From assembly GCA_004210915.1 (NCBI GenBank), contig SEGS01000030.1:1-64000 (forward strand): a stretch of DNA of 64,000 nt, written 5' to 3'. The position numbers were made by a program, and so were the translations under genes. Of the stretch, positions 48,104 through 63,185 are shown in pieces. Within the stretch, counting starts at the first letter, position 1. Every line of letters begins with the position of its first letter. The notes beneath the pieces are model-generated. The model saw only the letters and a program-made list of their open reading frames with translations, searched no databases and was not told the DNA's origin. Source of the DNA: Variovorax sp. GTDB taxonomy: Bacteria > Pseudomonadota > Gammaproteobacteria > Burkholderiales > Burkholderiaceae_C.

Positions 48104-49247
48104 CTATTCGCGCAGTTCGCGCAGATCCACAGCGGCCGCCATCGCGGCATAGCCTGCGTTGCCCGGGTGCAGATGGTCGCCACTGTCGTAGAGCGGATTC
48201 ATGGCGGTGGGGTCGGTCGGGCTGCGCAGCGCGGCGTCGAAGTCGATCACGCCGTCGACATCCTGCCGGCCGCGAATCCATCTGTTCACCGCTTGCCGCA
48301 TCGCCTCGCTTTCTTCGGTCCAGAAGGGCGCGCCCTTGAAGGGCAGCACCGTGCCGAGCAGCACCTTGACGCCTTTGGCCCGCGCCTGGTCCATGAGCCG
48401 CTGCAATGCGGCGGTCAGCCGGTCGGCCGTCGGCTCCTGGCTGCGCGGCGTCTTGCGCCCCGGCACATCGGCAAACACACTGGCCGCGATGTCGTTGATG
48501 CCGATCAAGAGGATCGTGTGCGTGACGCCACTCTGCGCCAGCACGTCCCGCGCAAACCGGTCCACCCCTTCGGGGCCGGCAGCATCAACCACGAGGCCGT
48601 TGCCGCCGATGCCCGCATTCACCACCGCCACCGGTCTGGCGCCCGCGGGCCCGTCGCGCAGGCGGCGCGCCAGATGGTCGGGATAGGCGCCCTCGCCCTG
48701 TGTGGCGCCGACGCCCTCGGTGATCGAATCGCCGAACGCGACAACGACGCGCGCCGCCTGGGTCGTCGCGACGTCGAGCCCGGTGACGTGGTGGTTCCAT
48801 GCCGCCAGCGCGGGCTCGTGAAGGCGCGCATTGGCCACGCTATTGCCCGCGCCCACCCAGGTGGCCTGGCGCGGGTTCCGATGCACCGTCGCGACCGGCG
48901 TGGGTTCGTCGAGGAAGCTGCTCACGGCCAGCACCAAACAGATTCGAGAAGCGTACCCGCACCTTCGCGCCGCCCAGCGTGGGCGCGATCAGCTGACGCA
49001 GGGTTTGTTGAACGAAGGCCGCGGCCGGTGCCGGCGCCATGCCGGGCACGATGGACGGCTCGCGGTGGTCCTGCGGCGCGGCAATCCAGCTGGCGGCCCA
49101 GCCGCCTGCCGCGGAGGGCGCCGATATCGCTGGTGTCGTGACGTTCACGGCAACGGTCGCTGCAACGACCCATGCCAGCGCAAGACGGCGAGCCGGCAGG
49201 AAACTCGCCAGCGGACGCCAGCGCAGCAAGTAACGGGCACTCTTCAT
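48104..49247 (-). pseudogene. SGNH/GDSL hydrolase, interrupted
   Basis: N-terminal ORF (signal peptide, VRVRFSNLFGA) and C-terminal ORF (VAFGDSITEGVG...GDHLHPGNAGY) are in different frames with a missing segment between. Confidence 0.75.
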
Positions 49248-49280
49248 TCGGGCAAAGCGACTGAGTGTACGGACGCTCCA

Positions 49281-51593
49281 TTAGCTTTGCCCGCCCAGCA
49301 CACGCAGTTGGGCATCGGCGTCGCCGCCTTGCAGCCGCACCGTGGTCAAGAGGCGCACGTAGCGGCCCAGCGCGTATTCGGCCGTCATTCCGATGGCACC
49401 GTGCAACTGCACTGCCTGTTCGGCCACGAAGGTCGCGGCCTCTGCCAAGGCGAGCTTGGCAGAGGCCAGACTGTTGCGGCGCTCGGCACTATCAGCCCTG
49501 ACCGCCCATTCGGCGGCCAAGGCCGCCATCGCCTCGGCTTTGAGCAAGTGGATGCGCATGTCGATAAAGCGATGCCGCAGCACCTGGAACTGCGATAGCG
49601 CCTGCCCGAACTGCCGGCGCTCGGAGAGGTAATTTGCCGTCATCTCGCACACGGTTTGAAGGGCGCCGACACCCAGCGCCGCCAAGCCTGCGATCTGCCA
49701 GCCGCGCAACCGCTCTACCAATGCATGGGCGGCCTCGCCGCGCGCCAGTAGCATGGCCTGGTCGGTCGCTGCTGGCAGTGCCAGGTCGGCCAGCGGCGTA
49801 CCGTCCAACCCGCGGTACTGGCGCGTGCAGGTCGCCAGCCCAACGGGAAGCACGAACAGCGCCAGCTCACCTCCTTGCTGCGCGGACACAACGACGGCCG
49901 CGGCACCTGACCCATACGGCACGCCAGTTTTGGTGCCGCTGAAAGCCATCTGGCAGCCTTGCGCCTGGAACGTCGCCTGCGGCGCATGCCAGTCGTAGCG
50001 GGTCTGCGCCTCGTCAAGGGCCAGCGTGACGAGCGCGCCCTCCTCGCCTTCATGCATGCGCCTCAGCCAGGCATGCGCCCCATCGTCGGGGGCGGCGCGC
50101 AGCGCCAGCGTGGCCAGCACCGCGTGCGGCAGGTACGGCGTGCTGGCGCCGGCACGGCCCAGTTCGCGCAATACCAGCATCGCCTCGGTCGTTCCGCCAC
50201 CCAGCGCCTCGGCCTGCTCCGGTGCCAACAGGCTGGTCACGCCCAGCGCAGCCAAGCCCTGCCAGTGCGTGCGCTCCCGGTCTGCGTCGATGGCGTCGGG
50301 CAGGCACTCGGGCAGCGCTGCGTCGCGCAGATAGCGCGCCAGCATGTCCTGCAGCATTTGCTGCTCGGTGTCGAAGCCTGGTTCGGGCGCGCGACCCTGC
50401 GGCGCGTCCAGCAAGAGCCTGGCCGTGATGTTCTTCTGGATTTCGTTGGAGCCGCCATAAATCGTGGTCTTGCGCATGTTCAGGTAGGTCGCGGCTAGCG
50501 GCGCGCAACGGCTGCCGCGCGCATCACCATTGAGCCCGCCGTCAGTCAGTGCGTTGCGGTCGAACACCAAACTGCCCAGCCCGCCGGCCTGCAGACTCAG
50601 GTCGGCAATCGCCTGCTGCAGTTCGGACGTCATGATCTTCAGGAACGACGCCGAATGCGCGTCGGTCGCGCTGTCGCTGGTCAGCAAGCGCATGTTCACG
50701 GTCTCGATGGTCACGAGCTCGGCCTCCAGCCGTGCCAGCCGCGCCGCGAACAGCGGATCGTGTAGCAACGGCCGCGCCCCACAGGGTTCCTCGGCAGCGA
50801 GGCGGCGCAGCCGCGCCAGGTCGCGCCGGCACCCGCCCATCATGGTGCCGAAGTTCGCGCGCTCGTGGGCCAGCAGGAACTTGGCATAGGTCCAGCCGTG
50901 GTTTTCTTGCCCGACCAGGTTTTCGACCGGCACCTGGACGTTGTGGAACCAGACCTCGTTGACCTCGTGCGCGCCGTCCAGCGTGATGATGGGTCGAACC
51001 TCCACGCCCGGCGAGCGCAGGTCGATCAGCATGAAAGAGATGCCCTCCTGCGGCCGGCCGTCGCTGCGCGTGCGTACTAGGCAGAAGATCCAGTCGGCAT
51101 ACTGGCCGTGCGTGTTCCAGACCTTCTGGCCATTCACCACGTAATGCTCGCCGCGCCGCTCGGCGCGCGTGCGCAGCGAGGCCAGGTCGGAGCCGGCGCC
51201 GGGCTCCGAATAGCCCTGCGACCACCAATGCTCCAGGCTGGCGATGCGCGGCAGGAAATAGTCGCGCTGCGCCGGGCTGCCATAGCGCATCAGCACCGGT
51301 GCCACCATTTTGTAGCCGAAGGGCACCAGCTCGGGCGCACCGGCCAGCGCAGTCTCCTCCTCGAAGATGTGCCGCTGCACGGCGTCCCAGCCCGGGCCGC
51401 CATGTTCCGCCGGCCAAGGCGGGGTGCCCCAGCCGTGGGCGTGCAGCGCATGGTGCCATTGCACATAGTCGTCGCGCTCCAGCGTGTAGCCCTCCAGCAC
51501 CTTGCGGCTGGTAGCGGGCGACAGGCGGGCTGCGATGAAGGCGCGCACCTCGTCGCGAAAGCGCTGCTGCGCTTCGGTCAGTTGAAACGACAT
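49281..51593 (-). CDS. double-domain acyl-CoA dehydrogenase
   Basis: Two ACAD modules in one 771-aa ORF: GYSEPGAGSDLASL...IYGGSNEIQKN and SERRQFGQALSQFQ...QLHGAIGMTAEYALGRY. Confidence 0.92.
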   Translation of the reverse strand: MSFQLTEAQQRFRDEVRAFIAARLSPATSRKVLEGYTLERDDYVQWHHALHAHGWGTPPWPAEHGGPGWDAVQRHIFEEETALAGAPELVPFGYKMVAPVLMRYGSPAQRDYFLPRIASLEHWWSQGYSEPGAGSDLASLRTRAERRGEHYVVNGQKVWNTHGQYADWIFCLVRTRSDGRPQEGISFMLIDLRSPGVEVRPIITLDGAHEVNEVWFHNVQVPVENLVGQENHGWTYAKFLLAHERANFGTMMGGCRRDLARLRRLAAEEPCGARPLLHDPLFAARLARLEAELVTIETVNMRLLTSDSATDAHSASFLKIMTSELQQAIADLSLQAGGLGSLVFDRNALTDGGLNGDARGSRCAPLAATYLNMRKTTIYGGSNEIQKNITARLLLDAPQGRAPEPGFDTEQQMLQDMLARYLRDAALPECLPDAIDADRERTHWQGLAALGVTSLLAPEQAEALGGGTTEAMLVLRELGRAGASTPYLPHAVLATLALRAAPDDGAHAWLRRMHEGEEGALVTLALDEAQTRYDWHAPQATFQAQGCQMAFSGTKTGVPYGSGAAAVVVSAQQGGELALFVLPVGLATCTRQYRGLDGTPLADLALPAATDQAMLLARGEAAHALVERLRGWQIAGLAALGVGALQTVCEMTANYLSERRQFGQALSQFQVLRHRFIDMRIHLLKAEAMAALAAEWAVRADSAERRNSLASAKLALAEAATFVAEQAVQLHGAIGMTAEYALGRYVRLLTTVRLQGGDADAQLRVLGGQS

Positions 51594-51609
51594 GGTTGGC
51601 CTGCGCGCG

Positions 51610-52422
51610 TCAGTTGCCAGTGAAACGCGGTGCACGCTTCTCGACGAAATGTGCCACGCCTTCGCGGAAATCGTCGCTTTGCACGCTCTCGGACATGTCG
51701 CGGTTGGCCGTGATCGTGGCCTCGGCCAGGGTCTGGAACGGCACCTCATACTGCTGGCGCTTGATCACGCGCATCGAGCGCGGCGACACGTTGTCGGCCA
51801 GATCGCGCGCATAGGCATAGGTGGCCTCGGCCAGTTTCTCGGGTGCATAGGTCTTGTTGACCAGGCCCATGGCCAGCGCCTCGTCGGAGCGGAACTTGCG
51901 CGCGGACAGCAGCAGGTCCAGCGCATTCGCATGGCCGACGATGCGCGGCAGCATCCAGCTCAGCCCGTGCTCGGCGATCAGGCCGCGGCGCGCGAACGAG
52001 GTCGAGAACGCGGCGTTGTCCGCCGCGAAGCGCAGGTCGCAATACAGCGCATGCACCAGGCCGATGCCGGCCGTGGCGCCGTTCAGCATGGCGATCACGG
52101 GCTTGGGCACCTGCGGGTAGAACGAATAGCGCGTCTGCCAGTCGGGCCGGCGGTTCATGTCGAAGGGCCGCATCCATGACTCGCTCTTGATGTCGTTCGG
52201 GTCCAGGTCCTTCAGCTCGTCCATGTCGGCCCCGGCACAGAAGCCGCGGCCGGCGCCGGTCAGCACGATGACGGCGACACCGGCGTCGCCTGCGGCCTGC
52301 TCCATGGCGGTGCGCACCTCACGCTCCATGGTGGCGGTCCAGGCGTTCAGCCGTTCGGGCCGGTTCAGCGTGATAGTGGCGATGCGGTGTTCGACGGCGT
52401 ACAGGATGTGCTGGTAGTTCAT
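51610..52422 (-). CDS. enoyl-CoA hydratase/isomerase
   Basis: TITLNRPERLNAWTATM; VLTGAGRGFCAGADMDEL. Confidence 0.93.
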   Translation of the reverse strand: MNYQHILYAVEHRIATITLNRPERLNAWTATMEREVRTAMEQAAGDAGVAVIVLTGAGRGFCAGADMDELKDLDPNDIKSESWMRPFDMNRRPDWQTRYSFYPQVPKPVIAMLNGATAGIGLVHALYCDLRFAADNAAFSTSFARRGLIAEHGLSWMLPRIVGHANALDLLLSARKFRSDEALAMGLVNKTYAPEKLAEATYAYARDLADNVSPRSMRVIKRQQYEVPFQTLAEATITANRDMSESVQSDDFREGVAHFVEKRAPRFTGN

Positions 52423-52931
52423 GCGGGGCTCCTCGGGGAAGTGGACTTGCCGCGGGCCAGATAGGCCTGCGTTGCGGGTTGTGCGCGCAGCTCGCGGCCC
52501 CAGCGGGCCAGCACCTTGGCCAGGCGCGGCGGCTCCACGCCCAGTTGCGCCATGGCCACGCCGCCGTTGACCGATTCACGGTAGTCGTGGATCAGGCCAT
52601 CCTTGAGTTCGAAGCGGCTCATGCCGTCGATGACGACGAAGTTGCCCGCGTACTCGGGCACGCGCGAGCTGAAGCTCGACAGCGACCAGGCGTAGGCCAG
52701 ATCGCCGTTGCAGACCGGGTCGAACATCTCCCAGCGGTAGTCGGGCCCGGCATCGCGGTGGAACAGGTCGGACATCATGTGCGCGATGTCGGCCCGGCCC
52801 TGGTGGTCGCCGTAGATGTAGTCGTGGTAGACGCCGTCGGGCGTGAAACAGGCCGCGAAGGCCTCGCCATCGCCTGCCTCGGCGGCCGCGGTGAAGCGCT
52901 GCAGCAGCGCGCGGAATGCATCAGGAGTCAT
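52419..52931 (-). CDS. SnoaL/NTF2-like protein
   Basis: FTPDGVYHDYIYGDHQGRADIAHMMSDLF... Confidence 0.75.
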   Translation of the reverse strand: MTPDAFRALLQRFTAAAEAGDGEAFAACFTPDGVYHDYIYGDHQGRADIAHMMSDLFHRDAGPDYRWEMFDPVCNGDLAYAWSLSSFSSRVPEYAGNFVVIDGMSRFELKDGLIHDYRESVNGGVAMAQLGVEPPRLAKVLARWGRELRAQPATQAYLARGKSTSPRSPA

Positions 52932-52955
52932 GCAGTCTTCCTCGTGTCGTTGGGG

Positions 52956-54458
52956 TTATGCGGATGCGGTCGCGCGCAGTTGCATGCGGTCGACCTTGCC
53001 GTTGGCGTTGCGCGGCAACTGGTCCACGAAGCGGACTTCGCGTGGCACCTTGTAGCGGGCCAGTTGGCGTTCGCAGGATGCGAGGATGTCCTGCGCCTGC
53101 AGCGGCCGGTCGGCGCTGACGATCGCCACGATGCGCTCGCCCAGTCGCGCGTCCGGCAGCCCGATGGCGGCACCCTCCAGCACGCCGGGGATGGCGTAGA
53201 GCACCTCTTCGATCTCGCGCGGGTAGACGTTGTAGCCCCCTGTGATGATCAATTCCTTCTTGCGGTCCACGACGAACAGGAAGCCGTCCGCATCCAGGTG
53301 GCCGATGTCGCCGCTGTGGATCCAGCCGTCCCGGAAGGTGGCGGCCGTGAGTTCAGGCTGGCCCCAGTAACCGCGCGCCATGCCGGGCGTGCGGATCAGA
53401 ATCTCGCCAGCCTCCCCGGCCGGCTGGTCGCGGCCGTCGTCATCGACTATGCGCAGTTCTACACCCCAGTACGGCCGGCCGGCCGAGCCCATGCGGCGCT
53501 GGGCGGCGTCGAAGCGGTTGCCCACCACGGAAGGGCTGGCCTCGGTCATGCCGTAGCCCTCGGAGATCCAGACGCCGAATTTTTCCTCGAAGCGCCGATG
53601 CACCTGCTCGGGCAGGGCCTGGCCGCCGGACACGCAGGCGCGCAGCGCCGACAGGTCCGCGCCCTCGGGGATCGGCGTTTCCAGCAGCGTCCAGTACATG
53701 GTCGGCACGCCCATGAACACCGTGACCTTGTGCGCGGCCATTTCGCGCAGCGCCAGTTGCGGGTCGAAGCGCGGCGCCAGCACCAGCCGCGCGCCCACAT
53801 GCAGAAAGGTCGACAGCAAACAGGTGTGCGCGTAGACATGCGCGAAAGGCATCACACCGTAGCCGCAGTCCTCGGGCTTGAGCTTGAGCAGGTCGTGCGC
53901 GAAGGCGTGCACGTTCCACAGCACGTTGTAGTGCGACAGCTCCACCCCCTTGGGACGGCCAGTGGAGCCCGAGGAGTACAGGATCACGGCGGCTTCACCG
54001 GGCTCGAACTCGGGAAACGGAAAGTCCAGCTGGCCCGGCTTGATCGTGAGGCCCGCCGCCTCCACGCCGACGTCAATGATGGTGCCGCGCGCGTTGAACT
54101 CAGGCAGCGCCTCGCGCAACTCGGTGGCGTGGCGACCGTCGTCGATGATCAGCGCCGGCCGGCAGTCGCGCGCGATGGCCGCGATCTCGGGTGTCACCAG
54201 CAGCGGGTTGATCGGCACAGGGATGGCGCCACTTTGCAGCACGCCCTGGTAGATGACCACCCAGGCGATCGAATTGGGCAGCACCACCATCACGCGCTCG
54301 CGCGGCTGCACGCCCAGCACGCGCAGCGCATTGGCGCAGCCGGCCGCCATGCGGTCCAGTTCGCCGTAGCTGATGGACCGCTCGCCCTCGCTGAGCGCGA
54401 TCGCATCGGGCCGGTTGCGCGCATGCCAGCGCACGGACTCGGCAATGTTCAAAGCCAT
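52956..54458 (-). CDS. AMP-binding acyl-CoA synthetase
   Basis: ILYSSGSTGRPKGVELSH; GYGMTEASP; GDIGHLDADGFLFVVDRKKELIITGGYNVYP; LPRNANGKVDR. Confidence 0.94.
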   Translation of the reverse strand: MALNIAESVRWHARNRPDAIALSEGERSISYGELDRMAAGCANALRVLGVQPRERVMVVLPNSIAWVVIYQGVLQSGAIPVPINPLLVTPEIAAIARDCRPALIIDDGRHATELREALPEFNARGTIIDVGVEAAGLTIKPGQLDFPFPEFEPGEAAVILYSSGSTGRPKGVELSHYNVLWNVHAFAHDLLKLKPEDCGYGVMPFAHVYAHTCLLSTFLHVGARLVLAPRFDPQLALREMAAHKVTVFMGVPTMYWTLLETPIPEGADLSALRACVSGGQALPEQVHRRFEEKFGVWISEGYGMTEASPSVVGNRFDAAQRRMGSAGRPYWGVELRIVDDDGRDQPAGEAGEILIRTPGMARGYWGQPELTAATFRDGWIHSGDIGHLDADGFLFVVDRKKELIITGGYNVYPREIEEVLYAIPGVLEGAAIGLPDARLGERIVAIVSADRPLQAQDILASCERQLARYKVPREVRFVDQLPRNANGKVDRMQLRATASA

Positions 54459-54487
54459 CTCGTTCGTTCCTTGCTCTTCTTCGATCG

Positions 54488-55450
54488 TCAACGCCCGGCG
54501 CCGCGACGCAGACGCGCCCACAGCGCCGCGGCCATCGGTACCAGGCCGCGCGGGAAATACACCATGGCCAGGATCAGCAGCACGCCGTAGGCGATGAAGC
54601 GAAAGGTTTCGGCCACGCGCAGCAGCTCGGGCAACGCCACCACGAGGCCGGCGCCCACCAGCGGGCCGACCAGCGTGCCGCTGCCGCCCAGGATCACGGC
54701 CAGGATGGCGTTCATGGACGCATCCACCGAGAACGGCGAGGGGTTGATGAACCCCACGTAGTGCGCATACAGCGCGCCCGCGAAACCGGCGTACAGCGCA
54801 CTGGCGATGAAGGCCGCCAGCTTGTAGCGCGCGCAGGAGATGCCCAGCGCCTCGGCGTAGTTCTCGTTCTGGCGGATCGCCTGCCAGGTGCGACCGATGC
54901 GCGAGCGCACGATCCAGGCCGCCACCAGGCTGGTTGCCACCAGCGCGGCGAGCATGAGGTAGTAGTAGTGCGACCGGTTGCTGAAGTCCACCGTGACCCC
55001 GCCCACCGAGAAGCCCGGCGGTGGCGGGATGCGGCTGATACCCGACTCGCCGCCCGTGATGTCGATGGCATTGATCAACACGATGAAGATCACCATGTTG
55101 TAGGCCATGGTCACGATCGCGAAGTAATGCCCCTTCACACGCAGCGAGGGGTAGCCCGCCACCAGGGCCACCACACCAGTGATGACCGGCGCCACGAAAA
55201 GCGAGATCCATACTGGGAGTCCAAGTCGCATGGCCAGCAAGGTGGAGGCATACGCGCCCACGCCCATGAAGCCACCCTGCACGATCGAAACGTAGCCGGT
55301 GTATCCCTGGATGAAGTTGGCGCCCTGCGCCACCATGGCCCAGACCATGGCCAGCACGGCCAGGTGGATGTAGTACTTGATGTCCAGCACCAGCGGCAGC
55401 AGTGCCGCCAGGACGACCATCGCCCAGACCCAGGATTTGTGTTTGCCCAT
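54488..55450 (-). CDS. livM: branched-chain amino acid-type ABC transporter permease (LivM)
   Basis: Multi-TM; GYTGYVSIVQGGFMGVGAYASTLLA; GRTWQAIRQNENYAEALGI. Confidence 0.9.
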   Translation of the reverse strand: MGKHKSWVWAMVVLAALLPLVLDIKYYIHLAVLAMVWAMVAQGANFIQGYTGYVSIVQGGFMGVGAYASTLLAMRLGLPVWISLFVAPVITGVVALVAGYPSLRVKGHYFAIVTMAYNMVIFIVLINAIDITGGESGISRIPPPPGFSVGGVTVDFSNRSHYYYLMLAALVATSLVAAWIVRSRIGRTWQAIRQNENYAEALGISCARYKLAAFIASALYAGFAGALYAHYVGFINPSPFSVDASMNAILAVILGGSGTLVGPLVGAGLVVALPELLRVAETFRFIAYGVLLILAMVYFPRGLVPMAAALWARLRRGAGR

Positions 55451-55455
55451 GGTGC

Positions 55456-56316
55456 TCAGCCTTTCTTGCGCATCAAGCCTTCGGGCCGCAGCAGCAGCAC
55501 GCCGATCATGATCACGAAGGAGATGACGTCCTTGTAGCCCGAGGACAGAAAGCCCGCCGACAGCGATTCGCTGACACCCAGAATCAGCCCGCCGACGATG
55601 GCCCCGGGGATCGAACCCAGCCCGCCCAGGATCAGCACTGCGAAGCCCTTGATCACCAAACCGCCGCTGACGCCCGGCGCCACTGCGAACAGCGCGCCCA
55701 CCAATGCGCCGGCCGCCACGGCCAATGCCGAGCTCAGCGCGAACACGATCATGGACACGCGGTTCACGTTCACGCCCATCAGCACGGCGGCGGGCCGGTT
55801 CTGCGCTACGGCGCGGATGGCCGAGCCCATCCAGGATTTGTTGATGAACAGCGTCATGGCCACCACCAGCACTACGGCGATCAGGAACACATAGGCGCGC
55901 AGCTCGGGCACCACGATCTCGCCGAACTCGAACACGTCACCGAACGGGCTTTGCACGATCACCTGGTCGGGCCCGAACATCAGCAGGTTGAGCTTTTCGA
56001 TGACCATGGTCAGGCCCAGCGCAATGATGAAGGCGTTGATCGGTGGATCGTTGCGCACCGGGTGGTAGGCCACGCGTTCGATCACCACGCCCAGTACCGC
56101 GCCGGCCACCATGGCCAGCGGCATGGCCACCAGCAGGTGCACGCCCAACGTCTGCATGAGCACATAGGTCAGGTAGCCACCGAACATCGCCACGCTGCCA
56201 TGCGCGAAATGCGCGATGCCCAGGATGCCGAAGATGATGGTCAGGCCCAGTGCGATCAGCGTGTACACGCTGCCCACGACCAAGCCGTTCAAAATTTGCT
56301 GGATCAGCTCGATCAT
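55456..56316 (-). CDS. livH: branched-chain amino acid-type ABC transporter permease (LivH)
   Basis: QILNGLVVGSVYTLIALGLTIIFGILGIAHFAHG. Confidence 0.92.
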   Translation of the reverse strand: MIELIQQILNGLVVGSVYTLIALGLTIIFGILGIAHFAHGSVAMFGGYLTYVLMQTLGVHLLVAMPLAMVAGAVLGVVIERVAYHPVRNDPPINAFIIALGLTMVIEKLNLLMFGPDQVIVQSPFGDVFEFGEIVVPELRAYVFLIAVVLVVAMTLFINKSWMGSAIRAVAQNRPAAVLMGVNVNRVSMIVFALSSALAVAAGALVGALFAVAPGVSGGLVIKGFAVLILGGLGSIPGAIVGGLILGVSESLSAGFLSSGYKDVISFVIMIGVLLLRPEGLMRKKG

Positions 56317-56356
56317 CGCCACTCCACCCTGGGTACGGACAGCACGCGGGCCTGGC

Positions 56357-57589
56357 TTACTTGCGCAGCGAGCGCAGGTAGACCGAGTAGGTCTTGGCGT
56401 CCGACGGCAGTTCGCCGGCGAAGGTCCACTTGCCACCCTTCCAGACAAAGGCGCCGTTGGAGATGTAGGCCTGGCCGTTCTCGTCGAACATCTTGCCGTC
56501 GATGGGGATGTACTTGAGCAGTGCGTCGGCCGGCACCGGCAGGGTGCGCACCGCGGCGATCATCTTCTTCACGTCGGTCGTGGTCTGGGCCGCCTTCAGC
56601 GCGTCGCGCAGCACATAGACCTGGTCATAGGCGTAGGCCGTGTTGGGCGTGGGATCTTCCTTGTACTTGGCCTTGTAGGCTTCGGCGAAGCGCTTGGCCT
56701 TGTCGCTGCCCAGGGCCTGTACCGAGAACTCCACGGCCAACAGGTCGGTCACGCCTTCCATCTGCTCATTGCTGGCGACCTTGAGGAACTGCGCCTCGCT
56801 GCCGCCCGAGAAGCCATAGCGCGGCATACGCAGGCCCAGTTCCTTGGACTGGCGGTAGGCGAACGCGGCCTGCTCCACATAGCCGGAGATGAACACCGCG
56901 TCCGGCTTGAGCGCGCGCAGCTTGGTCAGCTGCGAGCTCATGTCGCGGTCCTGACCACCGAAGGTTTCCATGGCCGCGACCTTGCCGCCCGCGTCGGTGA
57001 AGGCCTTGATCAGGGACTCGCGGTACTGTGTGAACAAGGCCACATCGCGCACGGCCAGGATGCCCAGGTTGCGCACGCCCTTGTCGTACAGGTAACGCCC
57101 CGCCGCCGCGCCGGTGTAGTCGCCCGGCGGGCGCGTGCGGAACACGTTGGGGTTGCCGGCCGCTGTGATGTCGCGCGCGCCGGCCGTGCCGACCAGCATC
57201 AGCACATCTTCGCGGCCGATGAAGGAAGCCACGGCCCCGCCCGAGGCAGAGCAGCAAAAGCCCAGCAGCACCTTCACGTTGTCGCGATCGATCAGCTTGC
57301 GGACCACGTTGGTGGCCTCGGTCGGATCGGCCTTGTCGTCGTAGGCAATGGTCTTGATGCGGAAGTTGTCCTCGCCGATCTTGATGCCGCCGGCCGCGTT
57401 GATCTCTTCCACCGCCAGGTCGATCGCGCGCTGTTGCGGCAGGCCGTAGACGGCGCCACCGCCGGACAGCGCATCGCTGATGCCGACGTTGAGCACCTTG
57501 TCAGCGGCCTGGGCACCGATGGACGCCAGGGCCAGCAGCGCCGCGGCGCCGATCGCGCGCAGGCCGCGCGGGGAATGTGCGTGTTTCAT
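56357..57589 (-). CDS. LIV-type ABC transporter substrate-binding protein
   Basis: Signal peptide; VGISDALSGGGAVYGLPQQRAIDLAVEEINAAGGIKIG. Confidence 0.92.
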   Translation of the reverse strand: MKHAHSPRGLRAIGAAALLALASIGAQAADKVLNVGISDALSGGGAVYGLPQQRAIDLAVEEINAAGGIKIGEDNFRIKTIAYDDKADPTEATNVVRKLIDRDNVKVLLGFCCSASGGAVASFIGREDVLMLVGTAGARDITAAGNPNVFRTRPPGDYTGAAAGRYLYDKGVRNLGILAVRDVALFTQYRESLIKAFTDAGGKVAAMETFGGQDRDMSSQLTKLRALKPDAVFISGYVEQAAFAYRQSKELGLRMPRYGFSGGSEAQFLKVASNEQMEGVTDLLAVEFSVQALGSDKAKRFAEAYKAKYKEDPTPNTAYAYDQVYVLRDALKAAQTTTDVKKMIAAVRTLPVPADALLKYIPIDGKMFDENGQAYISNGAFVWKGGKWTFAGELPSDAKTYSVYLRSLRK

Positions 57590-57617
57590 GTCTCGTCTCC
57601 TTGTGGTTGAAAAGGGT

Positions 57618-58322
57618 TCAATGGCCGAGGTAGGCGTTGCTGATTTCAGGGTTGTCGCGCAGGCTGGCGCTGCTGCCTTCGAGCCGCACCACGCCGGCCT
57701 CCAGCACGTAGCCGCGATCGGCCACGCGCAGCGCCATGGAGACGGTCTGCTCGACCAGCAGCATGGTCACGCCGCGCGCCTTGATGGCCAGCAGGATCTG
57801 CTCGACTTCATCGACGATCTTGGGAGCCAGGCCCAGCGAGGGCTCGTCCAGGATGCACAGCCGCGGACGCGCCATCAGCGCACGGGCGATGGCCACCATT
57901 TCCTGCTCGCCACCGGACAAGGTGCCGGCCTTTTGCGCCATGCGCTCGCGCAGTCGCGGGAACAGGTCCAGCATTTCTTCCAGGTCGGATTGCCAGCCGC
58001 CACGGGCGCGCCGGGTGTAGGCACCCATGCGCAGGTTCTCCAGCACGCTCATCTCGCCAAAGACCTGTCGCCCTTCGGGACACATACTGATGCCCAGGTG
58101 GGCGATCTCGTGGCCAGGCAGGCTGCGCAGCGAGCGGCCTTCGAAGCGCACGTCGCCGCCCTTGACCGGCACCAGGCCGCAGATGGCCTTGAGCGTGGTC
58201 GACTTGCCGGCCCCGTTGGGGCCGATCAGGGCCACGCATTCGCCTTGAGCGACTTCGAACGAGACGCCGTGCACGGCCTCGATGCTGCCGTAGGCAACGA
58301 CCAGATCAGTGACTTGCAGCAT
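57618..58322 (-). CDS. livF: LIV-type ABC transporter ATPase (LivF)
   Basis: LIGPNGAGKSTTLKAI; LSGGEQEMVAIARALM. Confidence 0.93.
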   Translation of the reverse strand: MLQVTDLVVAYGSIEAVHGVSFEVAQGECVALIGPNGAGKSTTLKAICGLVPVKGGDVRFEGRSLRSLPGHEIAHLGISMCPEGRQVFGEMSVLENLRMGAYTRRARGGWQSDLEEMLDLFPRLRERMAQKAGTLSGGEQEMVAIARALMARPRLCILDEPSLGLAPKIVDEVEQILLAIKARGVTMLLVEQTVSMALRVADRGYVLEAGVVRLEGSSASLRDNPEISNAYLGH

Positions 58323-59103
58323 CGCCGTGGTGTCCCAGGTAGGCCTCGATCACGGCCGGGTTGTGGCGGATTTCCGCCGGCGTGCCCTCGGCGATCTTCT
58401 CGCCGAAGTTGAGCACGACGATGCGCTGGCAGACGTCCATGATCAGCCCCATGTGGTGCTCGATCACCAGCACGCTGAGCCCGCGCTCGGGCAGGCGCTT
58501 GATCAGCGCGCCCAGCAGGCGCCGCTCGCTCGCCACCATGCCGGCGGCGGGCTCGTCCATCAGCAGCACGCCGGGCTGGTTGGCCAGAGCACAAGCCACC
58601 ATCAACAGCCGCTGCTCGCAGACGCTGAGGGCGGACACACGCACCTGGTCGCGCCCGGCCAGGCCGACGAACGCCAGCAACTCCAGCGCCTCGGCGCGCA
58701 CGCGGGCCTCGTCGGCGCGCGCGGCGGCCAGGCCCAGCACGTTGCCGAACACGCCGACGCCGTAGCGCCGGTTGGCGCCCAGCAGCACACTGTTCAGCGC
58801 GTTGAATTCCTCGAACATCTGCGTCGTCTGGAAGGTGCGCGCCAGGCCCTGGGCGACCACGCGGTTCGCCGGCAGGCCCTGAATTGGAACGCCCTCGAGC
58901 ACGATCTCGCCGGCCGTCGGCGCCAGCGTGCCCGAGATCACATTCACGCAAGTGGACTTGCCCGAGCCGTTGGGCCCGATCAGGCCGATCACCTCGCCGG
59001 GCCGCACCTCGAAGCTCACATTCTTGAGCGCGGTGACGCCGCCGAAGACCTTGCGCACCTCGCGCAGCGACAGGCGCGGCTGTATGGCTGTGGAATCGAC
59101 CAT
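58306..59103 (-). CDS. livG: LIV-type ABC transporter ATPase (LivG)
   Basis: LIGPNGSGKSTCVNVISG; LLMDEPAAGM. Confidence 0.92.
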   Translation of the reverse strand: MVDSTAIQPRLSLREVRKVFGGVTALKNVSFEVRPGEVIGLIGPNGSGKSTCVNVISGTLAPTAGEIVLEGVPIQGLPANRVVAQGLARTFQTTQMFEEFNALNSVLLGANRRYGVGVFGNVLGLAAARADEARVRAEALELLAFVGLAGRDQVRVSALSVCEQRLLMVACALANQPGVLLMDEPAAGMVASERRLLGALIKRLPERGLSVLVIEHHMGLIMDVCQRIVVLNFGEKIAEGTPAEIRHNPAVIEAYLGHHGDAASH

Positions 59104-59105
59104 CG

Positions 59106-60539
59106 TCAGGCCGCCTTGGGTGGCAACGGCATCTGAATGGACTTGAGTTCGAGGAACTCCTCCATCCCGTAGACGCCGTTTTCGCGGCCCAGGCCCGACT
59201 GCTTGTGACCGCCGAACGGCGCCTGGATGTTGAACGGCGCACCGTTGATGTCGACCTGGCCGGTGCGCATCTGGCGCGCTACGCGCACAGCGCGCTGCAC
59301 ATCCGCGGACCAGACGCCGCCGGCCAGGCCGTAGTCGGAATCGTTGGCCAGCGCGACGGCATGGGCCTCGTCGCGGTAGCTGATGATGGACAGCACCGGC
59401 CCGAAGATCTCCTCGCGCGCCAGCGGCGAGGCGGGGTCGACCTGGCCGAACACCGTGGGGGCTACGAAAAAGCCGCCGGTTGGCAGCGGACCGCCGCCCG
59501 CGACCAGTTCGGCACCCGACGCCTGGCCCTGGGCGATGGCTGCACGCACCCGCTCGAGTTGCCGCTGGTTGGCGATCGGCCCCAGGCGCGTGGCCTCGTC
59601 CATCGGGTCGCCCGCCGCGTAGCTGGCGGCCGCCGCAGCCACCAGCGGCTTGATCTGTGCATAGGCCGATGCTGGCACCAGCATGCGCGTGTGGGCCGAG
59701 CAGGTCTGGCCGGCATTCTGGAAGCAGGCTGCGACGATGCCTTTGGCGGCAGCGGCGAAGTCGGCATCGTCCAGCACCACGGCGGCGGACTTGCCGCCCA
59801 GCTCCAGCGCCAGGCGCTTGACCGAAGGCGCGCACAGCGCGGCGATGCGCTTGCCAGCCGCAGTGGAACCTGTGAACGAGACCATGTCCACCTCCGGATG
59901 CGTCACCAAGGCCTCGCCCACCCCAGGCCCGTCGCCGGTAACCAGGTTGAACACACCGGCCGGCAGACCAGCAGCATGGATGACCTCGGCCAGCAGCAAG
60001 GCCGACAGCGGCGCCGTCTCGGCCGGCTTCAGCACCACGGTGCAGCCGGCCGCCAATGCCGGCGCGACCTTGCACGTGACCTGATGCAGGGGGTAGTTCC
60101 AGGGCGTGATGGCCGCGATCACACCGACCGGTTCACGCACCACCAGCGAATGGCCGACCTCTGATTCGAACGCGAACTCGGCGGCCAGGCGTGCGTACTG
60201 GCCCCAAGCATACAGCGGGCCGGCCACCTGCAGCCGGCCGCATTGCTTGATCGGCGTGCCGACTTCGGACGTGATCAGCCGGGCCAGTTCGTCAGCACGG
60301 GCCTTCAGGCCCTGTGCGATCTGCTGCAGGTAAGCGGCGCGCTGCACCGGCGTCAGCGCCGACCACGCCGCCAAGGCGGCCCTGGCCGCGGCGGCGGCGG
60401 TTGCCACATCCTCGCCCGAACAGGCGGGCACGCGAGCGATGGCCCGAGCAGTGGCCGGGTTGACGACGGCCAGCGGCGCCGCTTCCCGCATCGGGCGTAC
60501 CCATGCCCCTCCGATGTAAATGTGTTCCCTATCCTGCAT
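59106..60539 (-). CDS. NAD(P)-dependent aldehyde dehydrogenase
   Basis: TPWNYPLHQVTCKVAPALAAGCTVVLKPAE; ELGGKSAAVV; NAGQTCSAHTR. Confidence 0.94.
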   Translation of the reverse strand: MQDREHIYIGGAWVRPMREAAPLAVVNPATARAIARVPACSGEDVATAAAAARAALAAWSALTPVQRAAYLQQIAQGLKARADELARLITSEVGTPIKQCGRLQVAGPLYAWGQYARLAAEFAFESEVGHSLVVREPVGVIAAITPWNYPLHQVTCKVAPALAAGCTVVLKPAETAPLSALLLAEVIHAAGLPAGVFNLVTGDGPGVGEALVTHPEVDMVSFTGSTAAGKRIAALCAPSVKRLALELGGKSAAVVLDDADFAAAAKGIVAACFQNAGQTCSAHTRMLVPASAYAQIKPLVAAAAASYAAGDPMDEATRLGPIANQRQLERVRAAIAQGQASGAELVAGGGPLPTGGFFVAPTVFGQVDPASPLAREEIFGPVLSIISYRDEAHAVALANDSDYGLAGGVWSADVQRAVRVARQMRTGQVDINGAPFNIQAPFGGHKQSGLGRENGVYGMEEFLELKSIQMPLPPKAA

Positions 60540-60596
60540 GTCTCCTCCGGTCGCCGTACCGCCTTGGTTCGGTCGGAGAAACTATAAATGAACACA

Positions 60597-60612
60597 AACG
60601 AACATGTTCGTT
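60597..60612. promoter_or_regulatory. operator-like palindrome 1
   Basis: AACGAACATGTTCGTT, perfect 16-bp palindrome in divergent intergenic region. Confidence 0.7.
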
Positions 60613-60647
60613 ATTTTTCTAATGGATAACCCGACATCGAATTTTTT

Positions 60648-60659
60648 CGAACATATTCG
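60648..60659. promoter_or_regulatory. operator-like palindrome 2
   Basis: CGAACATATTCG, near-palindromic copy of site 1 about 49 bp away. Confidence 0.65.
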
Positions 60660-60723
60660 TTTGATAGACCGCAGTTTCTGCCCCTCTAAAATCTGCGACC
60701 GCTTGCCACGCGCCTTCCACTTC

Positions 60724-61569
60724 ATGACCCACAGCAAGACGTCCAAAGCCGCAGCCACCGCGACCACGCAACTGCACCCACGCCAGCGGGCGCTGGTCGA
60801 GCGCGTGCAGAACCAGGGAGGTAGTTGTTCGGTAGAAGCGCTGGCCCAGGCGCTGGACGTCACGCCGCAAACCATCCGCCGCGATGTGCTGCAACTGGAG
60901 CAACTGGGGCTGCTACGGCGTTACCACGGTGGCGTGGCCCTGCCCGGTGGCGCTGCCAACCTGGCCTACAGCACACGTCAGACGCTGCTGGCCGGCGAGA
61001 AGCGGTCGATCGCGGAACTCGTGGCCCAGCACATCCCGCACCATTCCTCGCTCTTCATCAATCTGGGCACCACGACCGAGGAAGTGGCCAAGGCGCTGCA
61101 CCAGCACCGTGGCCTGCGCATCCTGACCAACAACCTGAACGTGGCCATGCTGACCTGCGACTTTCCGGAAGCCGAGGTCACGGTGGTAGGCGGCGTCGTG
61201 CGACCCCGCGACCGCGGCGTGACCGGTGAGGCCGCGATTGACCTGATCCGCCAGTTCCAGGTCGATTACGCGGTGATCGGCGTCTCCAGCGTCGACCTGA
61301 ACGGTACGCTGCGCGACTTCGACTACCGTGAGGTGCGCGTGACCCAGGCCGTGATGGCACAGGCGCGCCAGGTGTTCCTGGTGGCCGACCATTCCAAACT
61401 GGGCCGCCCGGCGCTGGTGAGGCTGGGTGAACTGCGCGAGATCGACGCGTTCTTCACGGATCTGCCGCCGCCGCCCGAACTGCTGGCGGCGCTGCAAGGC
61501 AGCAAGACGCAGATCCACGTGGCAGGCGAAACCGTGACGCCGGCCAGGAAACCCGCACCGCTTCGCTAG
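60724..61569 (+). CDS. DeoR/GlpR-family transcriptional regulator
   Basis: HPRQRALVERVQNQGGSCSVEALAQALDVTPQTIRRDVLQLEQLGLLRRYHGGV; C-terminal sugar-isomerase-like sensor domain. Confidence 0.92.
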   Translation: MTHSKTSKAAATATTQLHPRQRALVERVQNQGGSCSVEALAQALDVTPQTIRRDVLQLEQLGLLRRYHGGVALPGGAANLAYSTRQTLLAGEKRSIAELVAQHIPHHSSLFINLGTTTEEVAKALHQHRGLRILTNNLNVAMLTCDFPEAEVTVVGGVVRPRDRGVTGEAAIDLIRQFQVDYAVIGVSSVDLNGTLRDFDYREVRVTQAVMAQARQVFLVADHSKLGRPALVRLGELREIDAFFTDLPPPPELLAALQGSKTQIHVAGETVTPARKPAPLR

Positions 61570-61586
61570 CGAGCCGGACGTCTGCC

Positions 61587-63080
61587 ATGGGCCTGAACAT
61601 CGCCGAATTCCTGCGCTGGCAGGCGCGCTGCCGTCCAGACGCGATCGCGCTGATCGAGGGTGATCGCCAGCTCAGCTATGCCGAGTTCGACCTGCTGGCC
61701 GCTGGCTGTGCGAACGCGCTGCATGTAATGGGCGTGCAGCCACGCGAGCGCGTGATGATCGCGCTGCCCAATTCCATCGCCTGGGCCGTGATCTATGAAG
61801 GCGTGCTGCAAAGCGGCGCCATCCCGGTGCCGATCAACCCGCTGCTGGCTACTTCGGATATCGCGGCAATCGCGCGCGATTGCCTGCCTGCGCTGATCTT
61901 CGACGACGGCCGTCACGCCGCCGAGCTGCGTCAGGCTCTGCCCGAATTCGACGTGCGCGGCCAGATCATCGACATGGGCGTGGAGGAAGCGGGCTTGTCA
62001 CTGCTGCCGGGCCAGCTGCTGCATCCTCTGCCCACGTTTGCGCCGGAAGAGACGGCCGTGATCCTGTACTCCTCGGGTGCCATGGGACCGCCCAAGGGCG
62101 TGGAGCTGTCGCATTTCAACGTCTGGTGGAACGTGCAGGCGTTCGCTCACGACCTGCTGGGCCTGTCCGAACACGACTGCGGCTACGCCGTGCTGCCGTT
62201 CTCGCATGCCTATGCCCACACCTGCTTGTTCTCGTCCTTCCTGTCCGTGGGCGCGCGCCTCGTGCTGGCGCCCAAGTTCGATGCCCGGCGCTGCCTGCAG
62301 GACATGGCGCGCGAACAAGTCAGCGTGCTGATGGCCGTGCCGGCCATGTTCTGGTCGCTGGCCGAGGCAACCGACGCTCCGCCGTTGTCGGCGCTGCGCG
62401 CCTGCGTGTCGGGCGGTCAGGCGTTGACCGAGCCGGTGCAGCGGCGCTTCGAAGAGCGCTTTGAGACCCTGATCTCCGAAGGCTATGGCATGACCGAAGC
62501 CGGCCCTTCCATCACCGGCAACCGCTTCCATACCGACGGCCGGCGCGCAGGCTCGGTCGGCCTGCCCTACTGGGGCGTGGAACTGAAAATCTGCGACGAG
62601 GGCGGACAGGAACTGCCGATCGGGCAGACCGGCGAGATCCTGGTGCGCTCGCCCGGTATTGCCCGCGGCTACTGGAACCGGCCCGCGTGCAGCATGCGCA
62701 GCTTTCGCGATGGCTGGCTGCACAGCGACGACTTGGGTTACCTAGATGCGGACGGGTTCTTGTATGTGGTCGGCCGCAAGAAGGAAATCATCATCAGTGG
62801 CGGCTACCACGTGTATCCGCAGGATGTCGAGCAGGTACTGCTGACCTTGCCGGGCGTGCGCGAAGCCGCCGTTCTGGGCGTGTCAGATGCGCGCTTGGGC
62901 GAACGCGTCGTGGCCTTCGTGGTCGCAGCCTCGCCGCTGCGGACCGAGGAGATCGCCGCGCAGTGTCGCGCCAAGATGGCCCGCTACAAGGTGCCGCGAG
63001 ACATCCGCTTCGTAGACGCGCTGCCGCGCGGACCGGAGGGCGCAGTTGATCGCACCCGGTTGCGCTCGCTCAGTACTTGA
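61587..63080 (+). CDS. acyl-CoA synthetase paralogue with divergent catalytic motifs
   Basis: Homologous along its length to 52956-54458; YSSGAMGPPKG and PRGPEGAVDR replace YSSGSTGRPKG and PRNANGKVDR. Confidence 0.88.
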   Translation: MGLNIAEFLRWQARCRPDAIALIEGDRQLSYAEFDLLAAGCANALHVMGVQPRERVMIALPNSIAWAVIYEGVLQSGAIPVPINPLLATSDIAAIARDCLPALIFDDGRHAAELRQALPEFDVRGQIIDMGVEEAGLSLLPGQLLHPLPTFAPEETAVILYSSGAMGPPKGVELSHFNVWWNVQAFAHDLLGLSEHDCGYAVLPFSHAYAHTCLFSSFLSVGARLVLAPKFDARRCLQDMAREQVSVLMAVPAMFWSLAEATDAPPLSALRACVSGGQALTEPVQRRFEERFETLISEGYGMTEAGPSITGNRFHTDGRRAGSVGLPYWGVELKICDEGGQELPIGQTGEILVRSPGIARGYWNRPACSMRSFRDGWLHSDDLGYLDADGFLYVVGRKKEIIISGGYHVYPQDVEQVLLTLPGVREAAVLGVSDARLGERVVAFVVAASPLRTEEIAAQCRAKMARYKVPRDIRFVDALPRGPEGAVDRTRLRSLST

Positions 63081-63185
63081 GACTACTGGCGCTTCGTAGA
63101 TACCCCCAGGGCATGTCAATCTCGTGTCAGATCGGCGGGAAGTTTGGGCGTGGAAAATTCTCAGGCCCCCGCGCCATCGCGCGCC

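Follow-up and report, generated by a model that had tools for sequence, protein, structure and literature searches.

Gene content and setting of the ligase paralogue

The window, meaning the whole stretch of DNA analysed, covers 64,000 nt of the genome of a Variovorax sp., a soil-type bacterium (contig SEGS01000030.1, positions 1-64,000; GCA_004210915.1). A DeoR-family regulator gene and a second acyl-CoA ligase gene diverge here from a catabolic operon that encodes a ligase of its own:

49281-60539, minus strand: catabolic operon, from domain searches, collinear with Xenophilus azovorans region L007 at 80% nucleotide identity
52956-54458, minus strand: operon acyl-CoA ligase, canonical motifs, 500 aa, 81% identical to its Xenophilus orthologue (L007:10001-11503)
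60585-60622, unstranded: operator-like element of 38 nt with the palindrome AACGAACATGTTCGTT at 60597-60612, identical at 35/38 positions in Xenophilus (L007 3679-3716)
60724-61569, plus strand: GlpR-type DeoR-family regulator with a complete DeoRC sensor domain, 82% identical to its Xenophilus homologue
61587-63080, plus strand: paralogous acyl-CoA ligase of ANL fold, 497 aa, from ORF, translation, Pfam, panel comparison and AF2 model
49280-63178, unstranded: insertion of ~14 kb with the paralogue at its end, from the flank distance in six congeneric genomes

The operon encodes a fused PimC/PimD-like acyl-CoA dehydrogenase, an enoyl-CoA hydratase, a SnoaL-like protein and the acyl-CoA ligase, together with Liv-type ABC permeases, a binding protein, ATPases and an aldehyde dehydrogenase. 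The dehydrogenase (49281-51599, minus strand, 772 aa) joins in one chain halves resembling PimC and PimD, the large and small subunits of pimeloyl-CoA dehydrogenase. Correcting the initial annotation, we place the operon ligase gene on the minus strand, with transcription heading away from the DeoR gene and the paralogue.

Across 499 aligned columns, the paralogue and the operon ligase share 66% identity (79% positives), which upholds the full-length homology noted in the initial annotation; the ORF coordinates and motif strings given there were likewise exact by ORF and translation checks. Pfam scores of 288.3 bits (AMP-binding) and 67.6 bits (AMP-binding_C) place the protein among acyl-CoA ligases of the ANL superfamily, and phmmer matches it to benzoate/4-coumarate/feruloyl CoA ligases (E 1e-67). 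An AF2 model built on a 44-sequence alignment is of high quality (pLDDT 91, pTM 0.89), with 4-coumarate-CoA ligases as the top PDB matches in Foldseek and TM-scores of 0.74-0.92 to benzoate/4-coumarate/feruloyl CoA ligases. The model adopts a thioester-type domain arrangement (TM higher to 5bst/3cw9 than to 5bsm/1t5d), to which we give zero weight, there being no operon-ligase control. The gene begins 17 nt after the DeoR gene on the same strand with no terminator-like site in between, and a search upstream of its start revealed no clear Shine-Dalgarno sequence. Its GC3 of 0.829 equals that of DeoR, whereas the operon ligase has a higher value of 0.884.

Both domains of a DeoR/GlpR regulator are present in the neighbouring protein (HTH_DeoR 57.3 bits, DeoRC 162.5 bits). 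Its start had been placed at 60604, but comparison with the Xenophilus homologue makes the ATG at 60724 most likely. GlpR-type models give the highest scores, PRK10906 reaching 246.7 bits, under its 331-bit cut-off; judged by position, the regulator controls the acyl-CoA/ABC-transporter catabolic operon and not glycerol genes. The 38-nt element is likely the DeoR operator. A near-copy of the palindrome AACGAACATGTTCGTT occurs 49 nt away at 60648-60661 in the DeoR/aldehyde dehydrogenase divergent region, and the motif has 3 matches against 0.21 expected; a single copy of the element was seen in the counterpart region of Xenophilus.

The whole cluster, including the paralogue, is an insertion that six congeneric genomes lack, because the flanking genes (a GDSL hydrolase and a biotin-dependent carboxylase) lie about 550 bp apart in those six and 14.25 kb apart here. 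The right junction falls near 63178. At the other flank, the GDSL-type hydrolase (48104-49247, minus strand) looks frameshifted, its N-terminal part in an ORF at 48840-49247 and its C-terminal part in one at 48104-48937; each congeneric copy occupies one open frame of at least 361 codons.

Altered catalytic motifs and their predicted effect

To assess conservation, we compared the paralogue with 41 further ligases of roughly 28-39% identity, a panel in which 25 columns are conserved at >=95%. The paralogue departs at four of these (T166M, T369S, G381D and K486A), whereas neither the operon ligase nor the Xenophilus azovorans orthologue departs at any of the 25; in a leave-one-out control, each tested panel member departed at 0-3 columns. 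K486 and G381 occur in 41/41 panel ligases, T166 in 40/41 and N408 in 36/41, and all four residues are retained in both close relatives. The affected motifs, all on the plus strand, are:

62067-62099: A3/P-loop, YSSGAMGPPKG (S165A, T166M, R168P), from codon comparison with both relatives
62724-62732: A7 motif, S-D-D for S-G-D (G381D); glycine in 41/41 panel ligases
62799-62819: A8 loop, GGYHVYP (N408H); asparagine in 36/41 panel ligases and both close relatives
63021-63053: A10 motif, LPRGPEGAVDR (K486A, with N482G, A483P and N484E); lysine in 41/41 panel ligases, codon AAG to GCA

Translation, panel and codons thus confirm the altered A3 motif and the lost A10 lysine reported in the initial annotation. 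Its further statement that the rest is intact does not hold, since A7 reads HSDD for HSGD and A8 carries E413D beside N408H. The unusual feature of the paralogue is real and somewhat stronger than first described. Where competent AMP-forming CoA ligases have an invariant A10 lysine, an (S/T)GD at A7 and a P-loop of the form (S/T)G(S/T)TGxPKG, the paralogue has alanine, SDD (within HSDDLG) and SGAMGPPKG, respectively. The Mg-binding glutamate of A5 (E304), the ribose-contacting D382 and R397, the P-loop K170 and G406 of the A8 CoA tunnel are retained. By the panel comparison, the paralogue lacks catalytic residues in the manner of a pseudoenzyme.

A sequence error at the canonical lysine, raised earlier as an alternative, is ruled out. 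Codon 486 reads GCA where both relatives have AAG, and codon 482 reads GGA instead of AAC; each differs at all three bases with no frameshift, which excludes a single-base sequencing slip. More broadly, a draft genome of 139 contigs could harbour sequencing or assembly errors, but the differences here are in frame, involve two or three bases per codon and extend across four motifs and 34% of residues, and the contig continues 58 kb past the window end; the chance that error accounts for the gene is negligible.

Across the adenylate-forming superfamily, conservation is highest at the A10 lysine, which is also a target of control by acetylation. In published comparisons this lysine is 100% conserved, touching the alpha-phosphate and the carboxylate during adenylation and swinging out into solvent once the thioester conformation is adopted (PMC6122825). 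Its replacement lowers the activity of 4-chlorobenzoate CoA ligase 500-600-fold (K492A; PMC6122825) and costs FadD13 96% of its activity (K487A; PMC2793005), while a glycine-to-alanine change at A7 of acetyl-CoA synthetase lowers kcat >200-fold (PMC3438747). For the P-loop, the E. coli substitution Thr217Ala (index 325), at the position of A165 in the paralogue, lowers Vmax by 73% (PMC6122825). On the strength of the mutants at the A10 lysine and A7 glycine, adenylation has very likely been lost from the paralogue; extrapolating from these relatives, we predict a reduction of at least hundreds-fold. An intact second half-reaction, thioesterification, is also doubtful. By motif position, H408 corresponds to Asn411 of 4-chlorobenzoate CoA ligase, a residue that is bonded to the AMP phosphate in the thioester conformation but not otherwise (PMC6122825).

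Divergence, distribution and competing explanations

In the collections searched, Xenophilus azovorans was the only other species found with this ligase, its protein sharing 81% identity with the operon ligase and 67% with the paralogue. The Xenophilus cluster is collinear with 49306-61522 of the window at 80% nucleotide identity, runs through DeoR and ends there; a second ligase is absent both at DeoR and elsewhere in that genome. Searches of genomes from the genus (102), family (401), order (300) and phylum (399), and from the Xenophilus family (401) and Xenophilus relatives (250), found no orthologue of the paralogue; these sets overlap, and some were queried with the operon ligase, which would match the paralogue as well. 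Plasmids gave no match above 40% identity and viral contigs none at all, and a scan of 84,980 genomes, which depends on exact matches to short peptides and can overlook relatives, matched Xenophilus alone. In a tree with weak internal support (95/59), the paralogue is sister to the operon ligase plus its Xenophilus orthologue, on a branch of 0.36 compared with 0.13 and 0.11 for the two orthologues.

The initial annotation had proposed a dN/dS check, and the result was purifying selection. In a codon model of three taxa (paralogue, operon ligase and Xenophilus orthologue), with synonymous sites near saturation and a paralogue branch that includes time before the catalytic losses, omega was 0.09 on that branch (about 0.045-0.15), the other two sequences giving 0.054, and omega = 1 was rejected (2dlnL 58, p 3e-14). 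When the model had seven site classes, including a uniform neutral phase at the end of the paralogue branch gained about 0 lnL; in eight simulated data sets with a 10% neutral phase, the gain was 8.6-26.8 lnL. Neutrality being rejected and a late neutral phase finding no support, the ORF was apparently maintained as a protein over most of its history, although the codon test is too coarse to detect a short recent decay. A model freeing ~20% of codons on the paralogue branch fitted better by 14 lnL, but we dropped this signal of released sites as specific to the paralogue; distant functional ligases show it as well, so the codon test is used against uniform decay only. The fit says only that the paralogue seems to have diverged as a constrained protein does. 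Segments 272-280, 298-309 and 204-216, which from general knowledge of ligase structures we take to form the acyl pocket, keep 29/34 residues, compared with 66% overall.

These observations favour, with a probability of about one half, a folded paralogue of an acyl-CoA ligase in which adenylation has been lost and which has been kept as a non-catalytic protein, that is, an ANL pseudoenzyme. The term had appeared in the initial annotation, and as an inference it stands: several catalytic positions are lost, published mutants indicate that such losses impair adenylation, and selection has been purifying. Its main rival, which we consider possible though clearly less probable, is a redundant second ligase that lost its function recently and is becoming a pseudogene, its frame intact because time has been short. 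This would suit a gene that is missing from Xenophilus and all other genomes searched, with several catalytic positions changed together, no obvious Shine-Dalgarno sequence and quicker protein evolution (21 changes from the family consensus v 7, p 0.013; branch 0.36 v about 0.2). Weighing against recent decay are the codon models, which lend no support to a uniform neutral phase, and the 497 codons free of stops and frameshifts. The A10 loop itself must have taken time to change, with two codons differing at 3/3 bases and replacements in four of seven, while the rest stayed constrained.

Retained activity of some kind fares less well. A still-active ligase, with another basic residue in place of the A10 lysine or a new co-substrate, could explain the purifying selection and the conservation of E304, D382, R397 and K170, and active 'pseudoenzymes' with migrated lysines exist (PMC10211241). 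We nevertheless regard it as very improbable, for a search of the A10 loop and P-loop found no new lysine and four motif positions have changed together. Only slightly more credible is a protein whose sole reaction is to thioesterify acyl-adenylates formed beforehand, as suggested in the initial annotation, or to hydrolyse them, perhaps working alongside the operon ligase. Such a role would fit an A10 lysine that is needed for adenylation and faces solvent in the thioester conformation (PMC6122825), and G406 of the CoA tunnel is present. The suggestion is weakened by the further changes at A8 and A7, where N408H alters the residue whose bond to the AMP phosphate is specific to the thioester conformation and G381D abuts the ribose aspartate; moreover, the operon ligase already performs both steps. 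Free acyl-adenylate pools are not known to us. A role as ligand-sensing partner of the neighbouring DeoR, also proposed at the outset, is unlikely too. Adjacency stands in its favour (same strand, 17-nt gap, no intervening terminator-like site, similar GC3), but the paralogue is not required for DeoR function, given that Xenophilus keeps DeoR and the operator-like element without it and that DeoR has its own full DeoRC domain, with best scores to GlpR-type models. No DeoR-ligase partnership was found in open-access papers.

Possible role and relation to known systems

If the pseudoenzyme reading is right, the protein that the paralogue partners or binds ligand for is more likely to be the active operon ligase than DeoR, although how it acts, as a partner of that ligase, a ligand buffer or a sensor, is conjecture. 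It may still bind the acid and/or nucleotide, and could be produced at a low level from the regulator's transcript. It might then modulate the active operon ligase, to which it is 66% identical, or buffer that enzyme's substrate or intermediate, rather than working via DeoR. Acyl-CoA ligases commonly form dimers. Pseudoenzymes that regulate active paralogues by heterodimerisation have been reviewed (PMC10211241). More speculatively, the protein could be a natural bacterial ANL pseudoligase, expressed from the regulator's transcript, that serves the active ligase of the same catabolic cluster as a substrate-sensing or prozyme-like subunit. Open-access papers offered nothing direct on ANL pseudoenzymes or DeoR-ligase partners. 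Should the paralogue prove maintained, it would become a candidate example of the ANL fold serving non-catalytically in bacterial acid catabolism, adjoining a working sister ligase; as a merely dying duplicate it would be ordinary, and its single carrier genome limits its interest.

The closest known proteins, the operon ligase and its Xenophilus azovorans orthologue, share with the paralogue full-length homology (66% and 67%), fold and acyl-pocket segments; unlike it, they keep T166, G381, N408 and K486 and lie inside the catabolic operon. The AF2 model also matches benzoate/4-coumarate/feruloyl CoA ligases (PDB 5bst, 8wev, 4eat and 3cw9), a family characterised by the A10 lysine and the A7 glycine, both of which the paralogue lacks. 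The same A10 residue is missing from the engineered variants 4-chlorobenzoate CoA ligase K492A, FadD13 K487A and McbA K483A (PDB 6h1b, which matches the paralogue model); those are laboratory changes, whereas the change described here is natural and combined with others at A3, A7 and A8. Prozyme-type pseudoenzymes (FAM20A, the AdoMetDC prozyme and PRMT1 PRO; PMC10211241) belong to other enzyme families, and a paralogue-ligase interaction is conjectural here, yet they share with the arrangement proposed for this locus a dead paralogue kept beside an active one.
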